Assembly (NCBI GenBank): GCA_963662155.1
Contig: OY759265.1
Coordinates: 41,995,162 to 42,059,161, forward strand
DNA length: 64,000 nucleotides
Direction: 5' to 3'
DNA from: Lamellibrachia columna
Lineage: Eukaryota; Annelida; Polychaeta; Sabellida; Siboglinidae
Positions within the stretch are counted from its first letter, which is position 1, and every line of letters begins with the position of its first letter. Shown piece by piece: positions 1 to 36,345 of this stretch. The notes below the pieces were generated by a model. It searched no databases and was not told where the DNA came from. It saw only the letters and a program-made list of their open reading frames with translations. The position numbers and the translations under genes are program-made.

Positions 1-2913
1 CGAGCCACCTTTGATTTCGAGTGTTGGTTCGACACCGCACGACTTCCATCAGATAGTGACAAGGTCCACTGGGTGGCGCGTCACGTTCCGTTGAGCGTCA
101 GCGTGGCGTCCAAAGTGCCGGGACACGAAAAAGTGCAATATCTCGTCACGGATGGAGACACCAACAAGTTGGTGAGCTCCTTGATGGACATCTTGCAATC
201 GATGAGTGACGCCGCCTACGAAAACATCAAAAATTCTTACGAAGACGTGCTAGCTCGACTGGTAAAAGCACGATCGAATTGGGACGAAACATTGCGCAAT
301 GCACGATTACCTGACGACGAGGAATCTCGTCAACCGACCAACCCGTACAAAACGCTGATTAAACAACTTCACGACTGGCTTCATAAATTACCAGTCATCG
401 GCTTTAATTCGGGGGAATACGATCTCAATGCCGTCAAACAGTTCCTCGTTCCCTACTTCCTATCAAAGAAAGAAGAAGAAGAAGAAGAAGAAATGGAACA
501 GGACGACAAAGAAGAAGAAGAAGAAGAGAACGATGGTGTCGGGTCGTTTTTCGTCATCAAACGCAACAACACGTTCATGTGTTTGGCAACAGACAAGCTG
601 AAATTCTTAGACATGACCAATTACATAGCCCCAGGATTCAGCTACGACTAATATCTGAAAGCGTACAGTTGTAAAATAACAAAAGGGTTTTTCCCGTACG
701 AATATATGGATTGTCTGGAGAGACTCGACGATACAGCACTTCCACCGAAAGAAGCCTTCTTCAGTCGATTGAAGAACGAGGGTATTTCCGACGAGGATTA
801 TGTCGGTTGTCAAGAGGCCTGGCGCGATAACGGCATGACGACCTGGCGAGACTTTCTCGTCTGGTACAACAACAGAGACGTGGTTCCCTTTCTACAAGCC
901 ATCGACAGACAGTTCGCCTTCTACCAACAACGCGGCATAGACATGTTCAAGCAGGGCATCAGCGTAACCGGTCTGATCTTGCTCTACCTGTTCAACGATC
1001 TTCCGGAGAAGACGTACTTTACGCTCTTCAAAGAGAAGAATAAAGATCTTCATCAGCTCGTCAAAGATCACATCGTCGGTGGACCTTCGCTCGTTTTTCA
1101 CCGCTATCACGAGAAAGGAGTCACTAAGATCCGTCAGAGCGATTACGGTAACGCCAGTCGGCTGTGCCAGGCCGTTGTTGGCTACGATGCCAATGCCCTT
1201 TACCTCTGGGCGTTAATGCAAAACATGCCGACGGGCTGGCACAGCCGACGCCGTGAACAAAACAACTTCCGTCCCGAATCGGCACAACCCCACGGTCAGA
1301 TGGCTTCAGAGTGGCTTACATGGGAAGCCGAACGGACGGGACGCGCCATCCACCATCAAGTCAACGGTCGAGAGAAGCGAATAGGTAAACTTCCGGTGGA
1401 CGGGTGGTGCAGCGAGACGAACACGGCGTATCAGTTCCACGGATGTTTCTACCACGGTCACCCGTGCTTGGGTCTAGAAACGAACGCCGTCAACGGGAAA
1501 CCCATGACCCAACTGCTCGCCGAGACCCGAAAGAACACCACCTACCTACGTCACTTTGTCAAGGTCGTCGAGTTGTGGGGATGTGAGTGGAAAGAGACGA
1601 GAAGAGATCCGGTCGTAAAAAAGTGTCTGGATGCCGCCTTTCCGCGACGACGCCACGTGCGGTGGACGATGACGTCGCAACAGATCCTGAGAGGCGTGTG
1701 TGACGGAACCATATTCGGATTGATCGAATGCGATGTTTGCGTACCGGAAGCATTACACGCGCATTTTTCCGAAATGCAGCCGGTGTTTAAAAACATCCAT
1801 CTGACCCGCGACGATCTCGGACCTTTCATGCGCCGATACGCCGAAGAGCACGACACCATGACGACTCCGCGGCGCATGCTCGTGGGCAGTTTCCACGGCG
1901 AAAAGTTATTGCTCGCGACATCGCTTCTGAGATGGTACCTGGAACACGGACTCGAGGTGACGCGCGTCTATCAGGTCGTCGAAAACACCCCCAGCCCGTG
2001 TTTCCGACGGTTCGGCGATGCAGTGTCCACGGCCCGACGCGAAGGAGACGTCCACCCGCACAAGACCAACATCGCAGACACCTTGAAGTTGCTGGGGAAC
2101 TCGGGTTACGGGAAGACCATCACCAACGTGGATCGACATCGCGACGTGAAATACTGCACGGAGAAGCCGGCATCGCTCATGGTCAACGATAGACGGTTCC
2201 GACAACTCGACGTCGTCGTCGACGATGCGTACGAGATAGCGATGAACAAGAAAACCGTCACGTACGCCCTGCCCGTACACGTGGGGTTCTTCGTTCTGCA
2301 GTACGCCAAGATGCGCATGTTGCAGTTCTATTACGACTTTATCGACAGGTATCTGGAGCGTCCTCTTTTCCAGTACTGCGAGATGGATACAGATTTCGCC
2401 TATTTAGCTTTGGCCGGCGAGTCCGTCGACGACCTCGTGACCCCGGAACTACGAGAACATTATTTCCGACATCGATCCGAATGGTTACCGTCCAAATGTT
2501 GCGACGAACATCAGAACGAGTACGTGCGCTGTCGACTCGCCGATTGTCCGTGGGTCGGAGATGAAGCGTGCTGTAAGGTGCGAAGAGCATTCAACAAGAG
2601 TACGCCCGGTCTGTTCAAGGTCGAGTGGTCCGGTGACGGATTCGTGGGGTTGTGAAGCAAGACGTACTATTGTTTCGGAGCCAGCGACAAGTACAGCACC
2701 AAAGGACTGAGCAAGCGTCACAACGCCATCAACAAGGACGCGTTCCTGGAGGTGCTCGCCAACCGTCGGAGCGGAAGTGGAAAGAACCGCGGGTTTCGGG
2801 TGCATCGCTCGTCGGTATTCACGTACGTGCAGGAACGAGCGGCTCTCACCTACTTCTATGCCAAACGCGTGGAGCACGAGGACAGAGTGAGCACGGGTCC
2901 GGTGGACGTGTAA
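1..2913 (+). pseudogene. Polinton-type family B DNA polymerase, 5' end outside window, two in-frame stops
   Basis: Replicates the element by protein-primed synthesis in the family. The frame is open from base 1 (upstream part missing) and reads to TAA at 2911-2913. Exonuclease-type motif GFNSGEYDLNAVK lies near 406-444. Counting from Met at 706: motif A YDANALYLW has its Asp at residue 161, a WCSETNTAYQFHGC segment with FYHGHPC, found in this polymerase group, follows near 235-255, motif B has KLLGNSGYG at 461-469, and motif C has DTD at 561-563. In-frame TAA at 649-651 separates the exonuclease half from the polymerase half, and in-frame TGA at 2653-2655 cuts off the last 86 codons; homology-like sequence continues without frame change past both. 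Motif C is followed by Phe564 where a small polar residue is usual. A run of Glu (codons near 465-530) sits in the exonuclease part. Confidence 0.93.
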
Positions 2914-2933
2914 AAAAGAAAAAAGAAAAGACG

Positions 2934-3365
2934 ATGCACGCCGGTCGTACGGTCTATAGACGTAGTGCTAGGCAACGTGTTCGCACACGTTATAGACGGC
3001 GAATTTCTTACAAGAGGAGACGTGCTAGAACCTTTCGTCTTAGTGCACGCTGCTATATTCGTGATGAACAGCATGGATCTTATTTCGTTGCTGGTGCAGG
3101 AGAGTGGACTTGCTTTAATTCGAAGTTCTCGTTTGCGGAGTTTCCGTACCAACTTCGTGCTCGCTGGTATGGTAACTTTGATCAGGTTAAGGTACTGTCT
3201 GTTACATACAAGATATGGATCCGTGATGTTAGTCCTGACCAATAAGTGTCTCGAGGTGATGCTTTGGTTCCTGTCATGAGAGTTCCCGTATTCCGCTGGA
3301 GTTACGATCCCGAACTTTCAAAGAACATTTTCACCTGCTGTGTTGTCTATGCATCCTATATGTAA
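2934..3365 (+). pseudogene. small Arg-rich protein resembling the N-terminal half of a CRESS-DNA-virus capsid
   Basis: ATG at 2934, 21 nt after the PolB stop. The first 35 residues are strongly basic (RYRRRISYKRRRARTF), followed by a stretch with aromatic/beta character: FSFAEFP near residue 72, then FDQVKVLSVTYKIW near 88-101. An Arg-rich arm followed by a Phe-x-Phe-x-x-Phe-Pro turn and a Val/Tyr-rich strand is the layout of the single-jelly-roll capsid of circovirus-like (CRESS) viruses. In-frame TAA at 3243-3245; the same frame then stays open for 39 codons to TAA at 3363-3365 and contains RVPVFRWSYDPE. The total of about 143 codons is shorter than a full CRESS capsid. Function is inference from composition and motif layout; it could instead be an unrelated basic virion protein. 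Confidence 0.35.
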
Positions 3366-3420
3366 AACGGTTGTTGTAGTAGTCGGAAAGCGCGTCATCA
3401 GTAGTTGTAGCGACAGACTA

Positions 3421-3476
3421 TATAAACAGGACGTGTAGAAAAGGCGATGTACACTGGTCGTCTTTCATAAGCGACC
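3421..3476 (+). promoter_or_regulatory. probable promoter of the ATPase gene (TATA box plus TCGTC/TTCAT motif)
   Basis: TATAAA at 3421-3426 is followed by TCGTCTTTCATAAGCGACC ending directly at the ATG at 3477. The same TCGTC...TTCAT...CG arrangement precedes the genes at 4140 and 6676, so it is probably the element's own core promoter/initiator. Confidence 0.5.
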
Positions 3477-4103
3477 ATGGACGTACGGTGGAAACATCCT
3501 ATCACGTGCATCGTCGCCGGACCGACGGGATGAGGTAAAAGTACTTTCGTGACACGTATGCTGCATCACGCTGCTACGATGATCGATCCACCTCCCGAAC
3601 GGATCATTTGGTGTTACGGAGAATGGCAAGAGGCCTACGCAACGATGGACTTAGTCGACGTGCGATTCGAGGAAGGGTTGCCGAGTGCGAGCATGCTCGA
3701 TTCGAAAACGAGGAACCTCATCGTCATAGACGATCTCATGGCGGAAACGGACGAACGGGTCACGACCTTGTTCACTAAAAAAAGTCATCACAGGAACACG
3801 TCCGTGCTGTATCTCGTACAGAACCTGTTCCCTAAAAACAAGGGGAGTCGTACCATCAGTCTGAATTCTCAGTACATGGTGTTGTTCAAGAATCCTCGTG
3901 ACGCATCGCAGATGTCGCACTTGGCTCGTCAGATGTATCCGGGGCGCGCGAAGTTCGTACAAGAGGCTTTTAAAGAGGCCACGTCGGTGCCGTACGGTTA
4001 TCTATTGGTCGATCTCAAACAGGACACGCCCGAAGACTTGCGTCTGCGCACGGCCATCTTTCCAGACGACGGTGTTCAGTACGTGTACTTACCGAAGGTA
4101 TAA
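3477..4103 (+). pseudogene. FtsK/A32-like DNA-packaging ATPase, stop codon inside the P-loop
   Basis: Expected to pump genomic DNA into the capsid. ATG at 3477 gives a frame of 208 codons. The Walker A loop is visible at codons 14-23 as AGPTG, then an in-frame TGA at 3531-3533, then GKST. Walker B is LIVIDD at about residues 81-86, followed by the sensor-like stretch TSVLYLVQNLFPK and the family's NPRDASQMSHLARQMYP near the C-terminus. The frame is otherwise open to TAA at 4101-4103. Any product starting at the normal ATG would be 18 residues; the next Met (3549) lies after the P-loop, so a product from there would lack ATP binding. Confidence 0.9.
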
Positions 4104-5617: not shown

Positions 5618-6645
5618 ATGGCGTCGAGGAATAAACGACTGAAGAGGGTCTACTTTGATCCGAAAAGGGTGTCAAGTTACGGAGGTGTCGATGCCTTGCG
5701 ACGCGTCACGCGCGTGCCGCGGAAAATCGTCGAATAATGGTTGTCGGAACAGGATTATACCCTACACAAACCGGCGAGACGTCATTTCAGGAGACGACGC
5801 GTCGTCGTGGGAGGTCCACGTCAGCAGTGGCAGGCCGATCTCGTCGACCTGTCGAATTTGAAAACCGACAACGACGGTATGACCTTTCTCCTCACGGTGA
5901 TCGACGCCTTCACGAAAGTGGCTTGGTACATGCCTTTAAAGAACAAATCCGCGACATCGTTGGTGACGGCGCTGAAAAGCACGTTCACCGAAGGTTGGTA
6001 AAAGACGTTGCAGACAGATAAAGGACTATAATTTCTGAATCGATCCGTTCAGGCTCTGTTGAAGAAGTACGGCATCCACCACTTCTCCACTCACAACGCG
6101 GAGACGAAAGCGAGCATCGTCGAAAGATTCAATAGAACGTTGAAGACGCGTATGTGGCGATACTTCACGAAACACCAGACGTGGCGATTCATCGACGTCC
6201 TTCAGGACTTTGTGCACTCGTACAACAACACCCACCACCGCAGTATCGGCATGACTCCGTCACAGGTGAATGCAAAGAATCAAGAAGAGGTTTGGCAGCG
6301 TCTGTACGGTCACGACGGTAAGGGCGTGCCCAAGTTCCATGTGTCGAATCGCGTACGCATCAGTAAGTTCAAGAGACTGTTCGAAAAAGGCTACATGGCG
6401 AATTGGAGCGAACAGATGTTCACCATACACGATGTTCACCCGTCGGCGAAGTACTGGACGGCACCTTCTACGAACCAGAGCTGCAGAAGGTGTCGGTGCC
6501 CATCGATAAAGTGTACCGCGTGGAATCCGTACTACAGCGCCGCAAAGTGGGTAGACGAACGGAGGTTTTGGTAAAATGGCACGGCTATCCCTCCAAGTTC
6601 AACAGCTGGGTCGATGCCGAGGCTCTCGTTCGCTATAAAGTCTAG
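5618..6645 (+). pseudogene. rve-family integrase with C-terminal chromodomain, three in-frame stops and one frameshift
   Basis: Would insert the element into host DNA. ATG at 5618; N-terminal part ends SSYGGVDALRR, then an in-frame TAA at 5735-5737. The DDE core follows: first Asp in QWQADLVDL, second in LQTDKG, Glu in SIVERFNRTLK. Further in-frame TAAs lie at 5999-6001 and 6029-6031, the latter directly after the second Asp motif. The frame continues through SYNNTHHRSIGMTPSQV; between about 6440 and 6465 it shifts by one base to frame 1, which carries the chromodomain: VYRVESVLQRR, then VKWHGYPSKFNSWV, ending at TAG 6643-6645. The chromodomain is thought to steer integration towards modified chromatin. 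Confidence 0.93.
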
Positions 6646-6675: not shown

Positions 6676-6957
6676 ATGACAGACGAGTCGACGACAGAGG
6701 ACTTCGCCGCTACCGTCGCCGCCACCGGCGGACAGCACAGACGCACAGAGAGAGAAAGACAGCACTCCTTGGCATCTGTTCGGTACCGTATGTCCCCGAG
6801 AGGAGATAGTGTTTCTTTGTCAGGTCGTCATCTTGTACACGGTCATCCTGATAAGCATTTACAACCTGACGAGAATTCTAATCTGTGGACGGCCCTGTTA
6901 AGTAGTTCGTTGGGTTACCTGTTGCCCAATCCCACTTTGAGACGTCATGACGAATGA
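6676..6957 (+). pseudogene. small transmembrane protein of the Polinton, probably frameshifted
   Basis: The ATG at 6676 opens an acidic N-terminus (MTDESTTEDFAA). The plausible membrane segment is read in another frame (frame 2, from about 6761): PWHLFGTV, then EEIVFLCQVVILYTVILIS. The C-terminal block NLWTALLSSSLGYLLPNP is again in frame 1 and ends at TGA 6955-6957. So two compensating frame changes, near 6760 and 6870, separate the pieces. The combination of one hydrophobic helix and a Leu/Pro-rich tail next to the penton gene is recurrent in animal Polintons. It overlaps the penton start by 11 nt. Confidence 0.5.
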
Positions 6958-7834
6958 TTTCTACCTGACGCTACCTAGCAACGCTTCCATGAAGATGTAT
7001 CATGACAATACGTTGGCTCATTACATCACGGACTTGCCTCAACGTATCGATCTGACTGGCGAGTGGGAGTGTGGGTTGGCAGAGATACAGTACCCACATA
7101 CTTGGTACAACATCGGAGTGGACGACATCTGGTTCTTCCTCAACGAGCACGAACCTGTGGGTCGAATACCGAGTGCAAAGATAAGTGCTGGATATTACAA
7201 AGGTCCTGTGACATTGATGAATCATGTCAACAAGGGACTGCGTCGTATGTGGACGGAAAAGACACGGGCAAAATTGAGCTACAGTTCCATCACTCAAAAA
7301 ATGACGTTGCACATGACACCGAGTATCGACTTCACTGTACCTTACCACAGCGCGCTGGTAAGAATGTTAGGATTCGAACCTTCGGTGGTCAGCAGTCCAC
7401 CAGCAGCAGACATGACACGAACGGACGTTTACCCGAGACTAGGTGGAACGAACATCGGTCTCACGGCGTCGACTAGCGTTGTTTTGCCACCCGAAGAAAC
7501 TCCCGACGGTTCGTACGCCTATCGTAAAGAGGCCGAAAACGTGGTGCACATGGATCAAGGGTTCGATACCATCTACGTCTATACAGACGTCGTGGAGTCT
7601 CGCATAGTCGATGACAGTCTCGCTCCTTTGTTGCGAGTCCTCTCGGTTAGCGGAAGTCACGGCGCCACGGTGATCGATCGATTCACTAACATTCACTACG
7701 TACCTGTGTTGTACTCGCACTTCCACTCGATCGAGATGGATATAAGAGACGACACCGGACGACGCGTACCATTCGAGTACGGTAGAGTGACGGTGACGCT
7801 TCATTTTCGACGACGTAGGAGCGGACTGTTCTGA
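6947..7834 (+). CDS. penton-like minor capsid protein, intact
   Basis: Encodes 295 residues starting MTNDFYLTLPSNASM and including TGEWECGLAEIQYPHTWYN near residues 36-54, the conserved start of the Polinton minor capsid (single jelly-roll vertex) protein. The C-terminus is basic and beta-rich (YGRVTVTLHFRRRRSG). No internal break. It overlaps the end of the membrane protein frame and is followed 2 nt later by the core-like gene, so these are probably translated from a compact late region. Role at the vertices is known for the family, not shown here. Confidence 0.88.
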   Translation: MTNDFYLTLPSNASMKMYHDNTLAHYITDLPQRIDLTGEWECGLAEIQYPHTWYNIGVDDIWFFLNEHEPVGRIPSAKISAGYYKGPVTLMNHVNKGLRRMWTEKTRAKLSYSSITQKMTLHMTPSIDFTVPYHSALVRMLGFEPSVVSSPPAADMTRTDVYPRLGGTNIGLTASTSVVLPPEETPDGSYAYRKEAENVVHMDQGFDTIYVYTDVVESRIVDDSLAPLLRVLSVSGSHGATVIDRFTNIHYVPVLYSHFHSIEMDIRDDTGRRVPFEYGRVTVTLHFRRRRSGLF

Positions 7835-7836
7835 AG

Positions 7837-8259
7837 ATGAATTACAAAGATTATTACGCGCGTCAGGCGGGTGGTGCTCTACCCTACTTCGCCGGTGCCC
7901 CATACCAACGGGGTCACGGACTAGGTAGTCTGTTCGGAGGTCTGCTGCGCAGCGCCATGCCACTCATCAAGAGAGGTGCAGTGGCTTTGGGAAAGGGAGC
8001 GTTGAAGACCGGCGTGCGCATCGCCGACGACGTCTTGTCTGGACAGAGCATAAAACGTGCTGCCAAACGACGCGTCACGGATACCGGCAAGACTATGCTG
8101 CGTGATATCTTGATACCTGGCGTGCGATCTCGTAAACGTATAAAACACACGTCTGCAAAGAAAGGAGCCACTACAGCAACGAGACAGCGCAAGAGACAGA
8201 CGTTCAAGAAACGTGAAGCCGACATATTCGACGACGACGACTATGACTTTCGTACATAG
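7837..8259 (+). CDS. basic Gly-rich core/minor virion protein
   Basis: Encodes 140 residues: start MNYKDYYARQAGGALPYFAG, then a Gly-rich segment (GHGLGSLFGGLLR), a Lys/Arg-rich middle (KRAAKRRVTDTGK) and an acidic tail (DIFDDDDYDFRT). The layout recalls adenovirus-like minor core proteins and is a constant neighbour of the capsid genes in animal Polintons; DNA binding or membrane action is inference. Intact. Its last 17 nt overlap the start of the major capsid frame. Confidence 0.7.
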   Translation: MNYKDYYARQAGGALPYFAGAPYQRGHGLGSLFGGLLRSAMPLIKRGAVALGKGALKTGVRIADDVLSGQSIKRAAKRRVTDTGKTMLRDILIPGVRSRKRIKHTSAKKGATTATRQRKRQTFKKREADIFDDDDYDFRT

Positions 8260-9531
8260 ACAGTCGTGCGAGGGGGTCAAGAGCGAACTGGATCTCTTTA
8301 CCGTACCCCCGACTCAGAACAGCATAATCGACAGTCGCATAGTAGAACATCAGCCCATGGCTTCTCTGGACTCGGGTGGACCGATAGAATTCCTGATACA
8401 CGGATCGGGAGACGATTACCTAGATCTCGCCAACACGATGCTACACGTGCAGGTGAAGGTGACGCGAGCCAACGGGGCGATATCCTCTTGGCCCTTCCCG
8501 TGGGACCAGTGAATAACTGGCTGCATTCGCTGTTCAGTCAAGTCGACGTCTACCTGAACGGTACGCTCGTGACCCCTTCGACCAAAACGTACGCGTATCG
8601 TGCCTACATAGAGACGCTGCTGAGTTACGGCAACGATGCCAAGGACACGCAACTAACGGGTCAACTGTGGCACAAGGACACGGCCACTCGCATGGACGCT
8701 GTCGAGATAGACGACGGACCCGCGGCTAATGCAGGGTTCGTGGCTCGACGAGCGAACATTCTACGAAGTCGGGTCGTCGACATGATGGGTCGTCTACACG
8801 TGGATATGTTTCTGCAAGATAAATTCCTGATAAATGGCGTCGATGTCAAGATACGTCTGGTGCGCAGTAAGCCTGCGTTTGCACTGATGGCTGGCGGAGT
8901 CGACCCCGATTACGAGATCACCATGGTCAATGCCACCTTGTTCGCAAAGAAGGCCACCCTGAATCCGACCGTACAGATGGCTCACATCAAGGCTCTCGAG
9001 AAGAGCACGGTCAAGTATCCGATGCGATCCGTCGACTGTAAGGTGTACTCCATTCCCGCGGGCGCTCGGTCGCACACGCACGAGAACCTGTTCCTCGGCA
9101 TCCTGCCGAAACGTCTGGTGCTGTGCTGCATCAATAACGATGCGTACAACGGTGCGTTCGATAACATTAATTTCCTCGCAGTGTACGTGGACGGACGACA
9201 GATACCCTAAAAACCTTTCCAGCCCAATTTCGAAGACGACCTCTTCGTCAGGAGCTACACGAGTCTGTTCACCTCGACCGGCAATATTTGGCAGGACGAG
9301 GGGAACGGTCTGACTCGCAGCGACCCCAGACACGGCTACACCTTCTTCGGTTTTGATCTGACCCCCGATCAGTGCGATGGTCCCTGCTTCCATCTGGTAC
9401 AAAAGGGTAACCTGCGCATAGAGCTGCATTTCCGTAACGCGCTGCTGACCACCGTGAACGTCGTCGCCTACGCCGATTTCGAGTCCGTGCTGGAAATCGA
9501 CAAGAAACGTAACGTCATCTACGACTACTGA
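8243..9531 (+). pseudogene. double-jelly-roll major capsid protein, one frameshift and one in-frame stop
   Basis: Main shell protein. ATG at 8243 (MTFVHRQSCEGVKSELDLF) in frame 2, overlapping the previous gene; the upstream in-frame ATG at 8213 is less likely because it lies inside that gene's acidic tail. Frame 2 runs to VQVKVTRANGA near 8480; the family continuation VGPVNNWLHSLFSQVDVYLN is in frame 1, so a one-base change sits between about 8480 and 8505. An in-frame TAA at 9208-9210 follows YVDGRQIP; the frame then stays open through FQPNFEDDLFVRSY and HGYTFFGFDLTPDQC to TGA at 9529-9531. About 429 codons in all, the usual size for this group. Confidence 0.92.
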
Positions 9532-9532
9532 G

Positions 9533-9994
9533 ATGGACACTCTGCAGATCGACAGACTACTGGCGACGGACCCGCGCACCAGATCGATATTTCGCGGTGT
9601 CGTACCCAAAGACGGACTGTCTACGACGACGACGGACGGCGTCCTGCCTGCGGCCTTCGTGTGCAACACCGACGACGGTGACGAACTGGGCGAACATTGG
9701 ATAGCGCTGTACCTAGACGCCGACGGACGCGGCGATTACTTCTGCTCGTACGGTCTGCCGCCACGACACGCTGCGTTCCGCACCTTCATGAACGAACATT
9801 GTTCCGAGTGGACTCATACTAGCAAGAGACTTCAGAGTCCTCTTTCTAACGTGTGTGGACAATATTGCATAGCTTATGTATTGTTTCGTTGTAACGGTTT
9901 TCCGAAGAGAACTTTTATCAACTTGTTCGGTACCGATTTAGTAGCTAACGATTGCCGCGTGTTTGATTGGGTTAAACAAAACAAAACGATGTAA
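9533..9994 (+). CDS. adenain/Ulp1-like cysteine protease, virion maturation type
   Basis: ATG one base after the capsid stop; 153 residues to TAA. Visible active-site context: His55 in GEHWIALYLD, Gln101 in LQSPLSN, Cys112 in CGQYC. The acid that normally follows the second strand would be at residue 71 (DYFCSYG), where a Cys is found; Asp68 is close by. If the alignment is right, an otherwise intact gene lacks a typical triad acid. The family cleaves capsid precursors during maturation. Confidence 0.88.
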   Translation: MDTLQIDRLLATDPRTRSIFRGVVPKDGLSTTTTDGVLPAAFVCNTDDGDELGEHWIALYLDADGRGDYFCSYGLPPRHAAFRTFMNEHCSEWTHTSKRLQSPLSNVCGQYCIAYVLFRCNGFPKRTFINLFGTDLVANDCRVFDWVKQNKTM

Positions 9995-10938: not shown

Positions 10939-11493
<555 letters not shown>

Positions 11494-11561
11494 CTCGCAC
11501 TGCTGCACAAACGGCTATATTGTACGATACCGCGTCTACAGTACAATCTAACAAAGGTTTA

Positions 11562-28706: not shown

Positions 28707-29045
28707 GGCTGCCCCCCCCCTACTGGGGCAGCCGTGGCCTAGTGGTTAAGGTGTTGGACTCTAAATTCAAGGGTTGTGAGTTCAAGACCCACACTGGGCA
28801 CGGTTCGTTTTCGAAGCTTAGGCAATTTCGTTTACCCTACTTTGCCTCAGTCTACTCAGCTGCAAATTAGTACAAACACTGTTTGGAAGGTACCTGCGAT
28901 GGACTAGTGTCCCGTCCAGGAGAGTCAGTATAACTGCACTCTAAGTTGCTTCGCACTACAGAAACCAGGTTTAAGCACTGGCCATATAATCCTTCATGGC
29001 TTCCTAAGGCGTAATGCCTGGGGATGACTTTACCTACCTTTACCT
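28707..29045 (+). mobile_element. tRNA-derived SINE inserted in LINE family 2
   Basis: Target duplication ACATTCCAGCAC at 28695-28706 and 29046-29057. The body has an A-box-like TGGCCTAGTGGTTAAGG and B-box-like GGTTGTGAGTTCAAGACCC, a middle segment GGCAATTTCGTTTACCC, and ends with two CTTTACCTAC units. The first bases form a palindrome GGCTGCCCC / GGGGCAGCC. Internal polymerase III promoter and target duplication together make the call secure. Confidence 0.92.
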
Positions 29046-32548: not shown

Positions 32549-34370
32549 TCAGTAAACTTACTGTGCTTACACACAGACAGTCCAAATCAATATTCACTAA
32601 TTTCTCCAAACACTTCTTTCATTCAATCCAGTGAACTAAATAAATCATGTTTATTCTATGCAAGATCACAGTCGTACAGAAACATATTTTAAGCGCCACA
32701 CAAGTCATAACACAAACCAAACACATGATGATTAAACCATTTTTCAAGATCAAACCCGGGGTGGATGCATGGGGCATGATATGCACACATTGCTTAGCCT
32801 TATGTGAAAAAGCTTTCACAGTAAGACATACAAGCCATTTTGAGTCTTAATTTTCGAAATGTCTAAGAGGAACATGCCCCATATGCCTCTACCAAAGCGG
32901 TGTACCATTGCCGCTTACTGTACATCATTCAGAAATATCCATGCCCCAACTCAAAATCCTGGATACGCCCCGGCATACTAAAAATCCTAAGTGCAAACAC
33001 TAGTTTGAGCAGTTAAGGTTTAACATATATCTGTTCACATTTAGACAATGAATGAGTCCTTACATCTGATTCCTGACTGTGGTCACTGGTCACACTGATA
33101 AATAATTCATAACATAACATTGTGGTCCAGACACTTAATAGATTAATTACTAACTTTATACTTTCGTGGTGATCTCACCAAAGCTTGCTTGGTCTTGATG
33201 ATCACGGTTTCCAAACGGGCTCTGGTAGAATATTGATAATAGTTAGTCATATACATTATTGGTATGACTTTTTAATCTAATCATGTAAATAACATGCTGC
33301 AAATTCCACACGATAACATGATGGATAAATATACGACTTGGATAAATATAAATATAGAGCGTGGATATAAATACACCAGTTAGATAAATAAAACCACTTG
33401 AATAAATAAATAAACAAACAAACATACCTCTTGGGTAAATAAAATAGCACTTGTTGTCATTTACAGCTTGGCTGCATGCAAATATGTAGACAATCACACA
33501 TGGTTATGCACATTGCACAATACGATCATTTAATCCTGGTCATTTATCCCCAGTAACTAAATAATTCCTAATGCTGTATGTTATTTATAAACAAATAGTT
33601 GTAATAAATGGTTCATTTCACTATGTTCGGAAAGCATCATTAATAAGTATAATTTAAAACACAAATATACCATAACATTCAGCATTTCATTTCAAGAGGC
33701 ATACCATGATAATCCATATTTCATTTCAAGTGTTTTGTATGTAATTTAGGTGGATTTTACAGTATTGCGTTTAGATATTGTAAAAAATGCCTGTTCAGCA
33801 CAACTTGAAAAATGTCAGATATGCTAAGGCATCCGTGGCGACTTTGCTCTAAATCGACTACCTCTCATTTGTTTTAAATGTGCTCATTACGTAAGGGAGG
33901 CTTTGTTTGTTTAGAATGCCGATGTTTGAAGATGCACATTTCACTTTCACTGTTGGTATCTGACTAGCATATACCACAGCCGCTTTGTCCACGATCATTG
34001 TGATTTTTATGTATCTTGCAAACATGTACTTTTCTGAAGAAATTGTTTTTTCGCATACACGTAGTTCTGTCTGTGTTGAAAATGAAGTTTTATTGGGGGA
34101 GTACAGAATAAGGAAGTTTGACATGTATTAATTTAATACTGATTTGTGCGGGAGTTAAATGACTGGGGATGAATAACCAAGAGCTAAAAGGCCAATAACA
34201 CACACAAAAGACACAGCATATAAAACAGAGTTTCTCGTCAGATTGTCACCCGGTCATGTATATATGGACAAGAAATACTATTACATGTCGACTTCACCGT
34301 TGTTTTCTTTTTGATTCCAACAATGTTGTCATGTTTTGCATCTGAAATAAAGGATAGCAAGTGTTGAGAC
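32549..34370. other. intergenic DNA without recognised gene
   Basis: AT-rich. A 43-bp stretch at about 33186-33228 has splice-like ends on the minus strand, but its frame does not fit the last TRPM exon found. Nothing else supported. Confidence 0.3.
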
Positions 34371-34445
34371 AGTGTGAGTGTGTGTGCTTGCGTGCGTGCG
34401 TGTCTGTGTGCGTGCGTGCGTGCGTGCGTGCATGCGATCGTGTGA
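34371..34445. repeat. GTGC/GTGT microsatellite
   Basis: Imperfect GTGC and GTGT steps. Confidence 0.8.
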
Positions 34446-34467
34446 GAGAATGGTGGGATTGGTGGAA

Positions 34468-34665
34468 GTGTATGTGATATGATAGGAATACTTCCTACAG
34501 GGTACGGTAAAGCCCTCATATACACAATTCTTCCTCGTGTACTTGATATGTACGACGGTAACAGTCAAAACATGCATTTGCGGCCAGACTCTCTTCTCGG
34601 CGCATTCACGAAGCCGAACGATAGTCGGATAAGCGAGATTGTTAACATGTTAGTTTTGTCACAGA
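34468..34665 (+). repeat. second copy of the RecQ-like helicase-containing repeat
   Basis: Starts TGTGATATGATAGGAATAC and matches 16339-16560 with about 95% identity by eye, apart from an internal deletion of roughly 36 bp; it includes the P-loop codons GILPTGYGKALI. Abuts LINE family 3 at about 34.67 kb. Confidence 0.75.
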
Positions 34666-36345
34666 CGGGAGAAGAAGAGTCGGTAGGGGGATTCGGACGG
34701 GGAACAAGGAATCGAAAGGGTCGGGTCAAGAGCTGGTAGAATTGGTTATGAGAAACGGGCTGGCAGTGGCAGGAACATTCTTCAAAAAGCGGGAAAACCA
34801 CAAAATATCGTATAGAAGTGGTTAGCATAAAACAAAACTAGACGTGTTGGTAATGAGGAGGCAACAGATGTGGAGGGTGATTGTCTGCAAGATAATTGCT
34901 GGTTAGCATGTGGCCACACACCACAAGCCCCTGGTGTTCGTTGTGCGCATGCAGAAGAGGAGTAAAGATAAAGTAGGGGAGGGGGGCAAAAGACCATCAA
35001 ATGGTGGAAATGCAACAGGGACACAACCGTTACATACAAAGAGAGGTTGACGTTAGACTATGGGAAACTTGGTACATCAACAGGAACAGTGGAAGAAGAA
35101 TGGAAGACTTTCAAAGATGCTTTTGTTGGCGCAGCAATTTGGCATAATGTCTGGAAAAGGGGATCCCATCATGAAGGAAAACCAAACTCGGTGGTTGAAA
35201 GAAGTAGCGAAAGCAATCTGAGAAACGAGAGAGGTATGGAAGATGATAGAAGTGATCAAAGAGAACGGGGAACACATTGTACGGACAGACAGAAGAAAAA
35301 GGCGGCAAGAAGAGCCGTGGACAAAGCAAAGAGAAGGAAGAACTATACAGAAAGTTAGACGAGGAAAAAAAGGTTGATATATAAGTTGGCACATGAGAGG
35401 GACGAGGACAGCAAGGATGAAAAAGGCGGCAAAGAGGGAAATGGAGGAGGAACTATACAGAAAGTTAGACAAGGATTGAGGAAAGAAGGTAATATATAAG
35501 TTGGCAAGAGGATGAAGACAGCAAGGATGTGAAAACTGGATCAGTCATCAAAGATAAGAAAGATAGGAAATATGTGTTACAGATATGGGAGGAGTATTTA
35601 AAGGAACTGCTAAACCATAGGGAAAACGGCGAACTAGAACTACCGAGTGCAGTAGAAGAAAAGTGAAGTTGGAGGAAATAGGGGGTGCAGAAGTAGAGAG
35701 AGCAATGAAGGAAATGAAGAGAGGCCGAGCGACAGGCATTGATGAAGTGCGAGTGGAGATGCTGTTGATGGCCTAACGTGTTGGGGTTAGGTGGACAAAG
35801 CCATTGTTAGATACCTGCATGGGGGGAGATCCCAGAGGAGTGGCGAACGGAGTTAATAGTCCCTGGTGGAAAAAGGGAGATGTTCACGACCCTGGAAAAT
35901 ACAGAGGTATCTCGTTGCTGGGTCATGTTCTGTAGGTGTTAGAGAGGATTCTGGATGGAGGGATAACGAGGATAGTAGAGGGTGAAGTGGAAGAAAAATA
36001 ACAAGTTTTAAAAAGAGGAAGAGGTACGGCGGACAGGATGTTCACTCTGAGACAACTGGTGGAAAAGAGACTGGAGGGACAGGAGAATATGGTGCTGGGA
36101 TTCATGGACCTTGTAAATATATACGACACAGTTCCGAGAGAGATGGCCATGGCCACGTTGAGGTGGATGGGTGTCCCAGAGGCGGAGGTGAGGATGGTCG
36201 AAGGCACACATGAAGAGTCAAAAGGTAGAGTAGTGTGCGTTGGCCTGAGACAGGGGAGTGGCCTAAGCCCACTGTTATTCATTTGCGGGCAGCAAAAAAA
36301 TCTAGATATAAGACTGGATGGGAAGAAACTGAACCAACGACAGAC
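34666..36345 (+). mobile_element. LINE family 3, degraded, internally deleted
   Basis: Endonuclease-side pieces VMRNGLAVAGTFFKKREN and KTIKWWKCNRDTTVTYKERL, a linker KKKAARRAVDKAKRRKNY, then reverse transcriptase pieces GRATGIDEVRVEM, EEWRTELIVPG, MFTLRQLVEKRLEGQ, FMDLVNIYDTVPREM and LRQGSGLSPLLFI. Directly after this the frame jumps to GQQKNLDIRLDGKKLNQ, a later part of the protein, so the segment with the catalytic YADD is deleted. Many frameshifts. Confidence 0.8.

Follow-up and report, generated by a model that had tools for sequence, protein, structure and literature searches.

A circovirus-like capsid-gene fragment carried as an insert between the PolB and ATPase genes of a Polinton in Lamellibrachia columna

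The Polinton and its small gene

The window, the whole 64,000-nucleotide stretch of Lamellibrachia columna DNA analyzed here, starts inside a DNA polymerase B (PolB) gene, and Polinton-like genes continue from there to about 10 kb on the + strand. Their order is PolB, a small gene, a packaging ATPase, an unknown frame, an integrase, a penton-like frame, a minor protein, a major capsid protein (MCP)-like frame, and a protease; the left end of the element lies outside the window. We named the element a Polinton from this gene set and order, its Pfam matches all being below the curated cut-offs. The same order was found in L077, L078, L080, and L082, over the extent fetched. The genes are as follows.

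1..2913, + strand: Polinton PolB, with stops at 649-651 and 2653-2655; DNA_pol_B_2 at E 0.0028, below cut-off
2934..3245, + strand: first open piece of the small gene, carrying the Arg-rich arm and the first half of the body of the CRESS-type capsid fragment; TAA at 3243-3245
3246..3365, + strand: second open piece, in the same frame, ending with TAA at 3363-3365; in this piece, relatives can be aligned to full-length capsids as far as RVPEFRWSYDP; DNA match to locus L068 at 3282-3325
3478..4103, + strand: presumed packaging ATPase, with an in-frame stop at 3531-3533 in the Walker A region
5659..6574, + strand: Polinton integrase in two pieces; rve_3 at E 0.0059 and 0.0065, below cut-off
6941..9531, + strand: frames we take to be penton-like, minor, and major capsid-like, retained alongside the insert described below
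9458..9994, + strand: adenain-like cysteine protease; Peptidase_C5 at E 0.082, below cut-off, and cysteine protease S273R at E 0.027

The PolB of another locus, L063, matches DNA_pol_B_2 in Pfam at E 0.12. No named profile matched the ATPase, MCP, or penton frames; the penton-like, minor, and MCP-like frames at 6941..9531 had no Pfam match, and no solved structure matched 8260-9210.

The small gene (2934-3365) begins with an ATG that sits within a duplicated Polinton leader, outside the capsid-like DNA, and its frame of 143 codons is interrupted by a stop at codon 104. Its GC3 is 0.39, against 0.58-0.66 in four other frames of the element, and 17 of its first 45 residues are arginine. The frame, the Arg-rich arm, and the FSFAEFP and FDQVKVLSVTYKIW motifs, in which the initial annotation had seen a circovirus-like capsid layout, were all confirmed, and the gene has relatives: in a set of 5.8 billion, 15 protein clusters match at E ≤ 0.011 apart from the protein of the window itself, and the genome holds 114 matches. 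These include fragments and split and divergent copies, a few of the divergent ones lying in longer frames, and 83 of the 114 are near full length at an identity of at least 76%. One relative, P0002, is an unbroken protein of 143 aa. The frame is indeed open on both sides of one stop, as first described, but that stop is not private to the window copy. The same codon, 104, is a stop in 21 of 55 copies, including L059, which is the window's own locus, and codon 9, directly after the ATG and between it and the arm, is a stop in 31 of 55.

Endogenous CRESS viruses and the family of the small gene

Relatives of the small gene outside Polintons were found in the same genome (880 Mb in 30 contigs). 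Ten low-scoring loci were fetched with their flanks (L067-L076). Three of them (L073-L075) are Polinton copies in decay. The remaining seven lack any Polinton gene; six of these (L067, L068, L070, L071, L072, and L076) adjoin a CRESS Rep gene by tblastn, while L069 adjoins neither kind of gene. The Rep of L070, the only one tested with Pfam and solved structures, matches Viral_Rep at E 9.8e-23, above the cut-off, and solved proteins labelled Rep or replicase at E values down to 3.7e-20, which we take to be of circovirus type. Rep and Cap lie on opposite strands at L067, L072, L076, and the L071 cluster and on the same strand at L068 and L070. A search for the canonical CRESS nonanucleotide in a stem of at least 9 found none in the seven endogenous virus (EVE) loci.

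The genome has 43 CRESS Rep matches. Rep frames of 270-361 aa occur on C11, C13, C14, and C8 with no stop in their matched part, which gives some of the endogenous CRESS viruses a recent look. At L071, a regular tandem CRESS array was considered and not borne out, the locus being a cluster of several rearranged copies. At C8:9704000-9741500, part of which is L071, Polintons stand in a tandem array whose capsid matches recur about every 10.0 kb, and a group of several CRESS Rep and Cap copies is situated about 6 kb away. Endogenous CRESS viruses are a familiar class of sequence and do not ride on a self-replicating DNA transposon. Those found here represent the donor lineage, and the Polinton insert differs from them in riding on such a transposon.

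The small gene had been assigned to CRESS-virus-like capsids, with a profile search of each open segment proposed as the check. A Pfam search of the two pieces gave a divided answer: the first piece supports the assignment weakly, its sole Pfam match being Circo_capsid (PF02443) at E 0.0029 and 18.4 bits against a cut-off of 36.2, and the second piece (3246..3365) does not, since alone it matches no Pfam family. Circo_capsid is also the only Pfam match of P0002 (E 4.5e-4), P0003 (0.071), P0004 (0.062), L080 (0.0034), L076 (0.066), and L070 (2.1e-4). The L071 capsid has two Pfam matches, of which Circo_capsid is the better (4e-5). The matched positions are 4-180 of 224 for the L070 capsid and 1-171 of 224 for the L071 capsid; all of these Circo_capsid matches are under the gathering score. 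The capsids of L068, L072, and L069 and the protein P0006 matched no Pfam family, and P0005 matched only an unrelated one, weakly. Neither the body without the arm nor the arm alone had a Pfam match, so neither part by itself carries the Circo_capsid score. As a control, none of eight unrelated Arg-rich frames from viral contigs matched Circo_capsid.

We therefore base the family on the capsids that adjoin CRESS Rep in the same genome rather than on the weak Pfam match. The protein of the small gene is 30-69% identical to capsids at the endogenous CRESS loci. The nearest is L076, with 69% identity over 51 residues and a DNA match of 75% over 3099-3310 (E 1.5e-34). The alignment of the small gene with full-length capsids takes in the arm, both the FSFAEFP and the FDQVKVLSVTYKIW block, and lastly RVPEFRWSYDP, where the small gene ends (P0002 and L080). 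Full-length capsids (258-286 aa at L068, L070, and L071) extend about 130 residues further, and P0002 and L080 lack this C-terminal half, which bears out the description of the gene as a fragment. Judged by this protein and DNA homology, the CRESS-type family holds, which makes the small gene the N-terminal half of a circovirus-like capsid gene.

Other searches returned little. AlphaFold models of P0002 (9 alignment rows) and the L071 capsid (10 rows), made to look for a single jelly-roll fold, had mean pLDDT values of 37.5 and 37.1, and no capsid was matched when solved structures were searched by sequence. NCBIfam and PHROGs gave no match for the small gene, and no related loci were found in the viral contigs or the phage collection. 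Two degenerate Rep motif patterns hit 33 and 25 stretches of the viral contigs; in the first set, the motif frame was Rep-like in none of 14 contigs of at most 7600 bases.

The insert, its target duplication, and its copies

The fragment had been placed between PolB and the ATPase, and it lies within an insert at exactly that junction, flanked by a duplication of the target.

2904..2948, + strand: 5' copy of the duplicated target, with the last PolB codons, the stop, and the Polinton leader AAAAGACGATGCACGCCGGTCGT; widened here by an A/G-rich run of about 12 bp
2949..3428, + strand: 480-bp insert carrying the CRESS-derived capsid half; absent from empty-site Polintons
3099..3310, + strand: DNA matching the capsid of the endogenous CRESS virus L076, 75% DNA identity, E 1.5e-34
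3429..3461, + strand: 3' copy of the duplicated target, 33 bp, the ATPase gene leader; all 22 loci with the ATPase downstream have the leader on each side

The repeat is 33 bp long and consists of the leader plus GGACGTGTAG, the last PolB codons and stop, which also precedes the 3' leader. L078 is one of the loci whose 5' copy of the repeat is continuous; in the window, as at many other loci, the A/G-rich run widens it. The leader copies lie at 2926-2948 and 3439-3461, compared with a mean of 0.00 matches in 100 shuffles. Within the insert, EVE-like DNA covers 2978-3049, 3099-3310, and 3282-3325, and the last 103 bp (3326-3428) have no DNA match in any of the seven EVE loci.

Polintons with an empty site were found in a sample of 20 ATPase loci, chosen by eye as having no capsid match listed nearby. 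None of the 20 had a capsid match when fetched, and in 18, the match to the window runs up to 2912-2918 and is followed directly by homology from 3429. In L141, PolB is joined to the ATPase with a diverged leader, and L123 has no PolB match. Together, the empty sites and the target duplication mark the 480 bp at 2949-3428 as added DNA. Transfer from an ssDNA virus to a Polinton, as the initial annotation proposed, is supported by the existence of sites without the insert.

The counts that follow rest on copies fetched from the 114 matches, 44 with flanks and 54 or 55 with the capsid body. PolB lies directly upstream in 37 of the 44 flanked loci (L059-L102), and the gene downstream in those 37 is the ATPase in 22, the protease in 13, and neither in two, so the same gene occupies this position in other Polinton copies of the genome. 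With at most five edits allowed, the 23-bp leader AAAAGRCGATGYACRCYGGTCGT precedes the insert in all 37 loci having PolB; the 22 ATPase-type loci all carry a second leader behind it, and the remaining 15 do not. Conversely, 150 of 1656 candidate ATPase matches were scored, and on comparison by eye 23 of the 150 had a capsid match at the right place and 127 had none listed nearby.

The 13 loci with a downstream protease (L064, at 1987-2541, L065, L073, L079, L081, L084-L087, L089, L091, L095, and L098) form a second Polinton type, in which the ATPase-to-MCP stretch is absent and the protease follows the capsid insert. Their match to the window ends at 3428-3429 in 12 loci and at 3358 in L079, and resumes in the protease at 9690-9691. 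An RPA C-terminal-like gene stands between insert and protease in L064 (PF08646, E 2.9e-11) and, by eye, in L073 and L081. The second-type copies are mixed among the ATPase-type ones in the capsid tree, so the two types may recombine. Another internal deletion is seen in L097, where PolB, the capsid insert, and the ATPase are followed by MCP and protease within 4.3 kb.

The capsid tree has 61 rows, 54 of them from Polintons and representing 53 loci (L059 and the window are the same locus). All 54 fall on one side of a branch with support of 89/91, which is below the tool's star threshold, and a branch separating the Polinton rows plus L076, L067, and L069 from the other four EVE capsids has support of 100/100; L067 and L069 have long branches. 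As the Polinton rows form one clade, we suggest one capture followed by amplification, and a single capture from an L076-like lineage would be the simplest reading of the tree. Some Polinton copies lie at intervals: about 9.7 kb apart on C4:6464130-6483786, and about 107-117 kb apart on C5:23747935-24081346, which suggests a repeated large segment. A copy at C5:42214176-42215342, 216 kb from the window, is identical to it in the capsid piece and the ATPase protein, suggesting a recent duplication.

Coding constraint and the fate of the fragment

Between L076 and the window, the capsid frame has dN 0.19 and dS 0.61 (48 codons), so that silent sites have changed more than the protein, a pattern lost among the Polinton copies; two other frames, compared as a control, gave pN/pS of 0.205/0.263 and 0.282/0.096. 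Among the Polinton copies, which are related so that codon counts are not independent, pN/pS of the capsid half is 1.53 (codon bootstrap 0.95-2.58; 54 copies), and it is 1.47 (0.92-2.78) in the 32 copies without stops in the body. The corresponding ratios are 0.41 (0.27-0.63; 20 copies) for the ATPase and 0.35 (0.27-0.47; 32 copies) for the PolB part. Masking CpG positions left the capsid ratios above 1 and the ATPase and PolB ratios below 0.5.

These values need to be read with care. In the same stretch, two frames closed in every one of the 54 copies gave ratios of 0.39 and 0.35, so that pN/pS is noisy on the capsid stretch; the low ratios of the closed frames follow from the diversity of the capsid half, which peaks at codon position 2 rather than 3. 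Given this peak and the closed-frame ratios, a value above 1 does not indicate positive selection, only the absence of the silent-site pattern seen in the ATPase and PolB. An overlapping or antisense gene, considered on account of the peak at position 2, was rejected, as no other frame is stop-free in more than 3 of 54 copies. Within the sampled copies, the codon comparisons thus show a capsid half not constrained as a protein after capture. The recurrent stops at codons 9 and 104 would most simply reflect the copying of stop-bearing masters.

The initial annotation had proposed a rare capsid exchange at this locus, and that reading is not supported. Only the N-terminal half is present, the element keeps MCP-like and penton-like frames that we presume to be its own capsid genes, the fragment shows no detectable constraint, and its stops are shared. 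In our view the fragment is, with high probability, a passenger whose source was a CRESS capsid gene. DNA of a CRESS virus would have been joined into a break at the PolB/ATPase junction of one Polinton, either through a staggered break with fill-in or by template switching during repair. That the Polinton remained mobile is presumably owed to the intergenic position of the insert and to the duplication, which preserved a leader ahead of the ATPase; the insert could then have been copied along with the element to more than 80 places. The fragment would do nothing as a protein, being both a passenger and a scar left when the two viruses infected the same germ line.

Alternatively, the truncated capsid may be a working Polinton gene, kept as a nucleic-acid-binding or capsid-blocking protein. 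The 32 of 54 copies with a stop-free body could in some cases still be translated, P0002 is unbroken, the basic arm is retained, the gene sits behind a Polinton leader, and a ratio above 1 can be read as fast evolution. However, the ratio is not below 1 even in the stop-free copies, and the stops at codon 9 and codon 104 are common; on the sequence evidence we think such a function improbable.

Two further proposals place the role at the level of RNA. In one, a capsid piece of a co-infecting ssDNA virus would have been captured by DNA repair at the gene junction and its amplified fragment would serve in RNA-level interference against CRESS viruses, to the benefit of the host or of the Polinton; we rate this a little lower again. 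Less probable still is that the Polinton copies spread virus-derived sequence giving small RNAs against CRESS viruses, a role that needs no protein constraint and would suit both the more than 80 near-full-length matches and the stop-free CRESS Rep frames that point to recent infection. The 127 of 150 scored ATPase matches without a capsid match listed nearby argue that the insert is not favored across the family. If the RNA-level reading were true, a virus-like transposon would serve to multiply copies of an antiviral memory. A chance Arg-rich Polinton accessory gene merely resembling a circovirus capsid would fit the low Pfam score, the unmatched body, and the lack of a solved capsid match, but it deserves almost no credence given the protein and DNA homology to capsids adjoining CRESS Rep and the empty sites that reveal inserted DNA.

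With the fragment read as a passenger, the nearest precedents in the available text of the sources are the bidnaviruses (PMC4061559) and the ssDNA-virus-like transposons (PMC3198968). In the Bidnaviridae, as far as the available text goes, the inferred course is that a parvovirus acquired the PolB of a Polinton, along with terminal repeats, and became a virus (Krupovic and Koonin 2014, PMC4061559). Both cases involve an exchange between Polinton and ssDNA virus that unites PolB with a capsid gene of single jelly-roll type, a type only presumed for the present fragment, but here the Polinton is the recipient: it has taken in half a CRESS capsid gene beside capsid-like frames of its own, and that half is unconstrained. 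A geminivirus-like Rep in a fungal transposon, a parvovirus-like element, and ssDNA virus insertions in transposons are described in the accessible part of Liu et al. 2011 (PMC3198968), and as here an ssDNA-virus gene is amplified within a transposon with broken frames. Unlike those, the present case concerns a capsid gene, a Polinton, a target duplication, and empty sites; the words Polinton and Maverick do not occur in the text of PMC3198968. Gene traffic involving cressviruses is also the subject of Buck et al. 2024 (PMC11071296), whose available portion reports traffic among adintoviruses, cressviruses, and parvoviruses, with chimeric adintoviruses and other midsize linear DNA viruses, and in which no CRESS capsid inside a Polinton or adintovirus was found. 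Searches of an open-licence library likewise brought up no title or abstract describing a CRESS capsid in a Polinton, which does not prove its absence elsewhere.

The bidnaviruses indicate gene exchange between Polintons and ssDNA viruses, but the moment of exchange is not visible there. The present genome holds the donor lineage, both filled and empty forms of the recipient, and a junction with its target duplication, so one physical route of entry can be read directly. Capture into a gene junction may thus be a route for ssDNA virus genes into Polintons, with a dead passenger as its apparent outcome in this case. The locus also cautions against taking a capsid-like frame in a Polinton as proof that capsids were exchanged.

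The rest of the window holds a few minor features. A long TA-rich simple repeat at 10939-11514 lies directly past the Polinton genes. Rfam places a tRNA match (36.4 bits) at 28731-28800 that is absent from the ARAGORN output, and positions 34001-36000 have a strong GC skew of 0.367 with an AT skew of 0.205.
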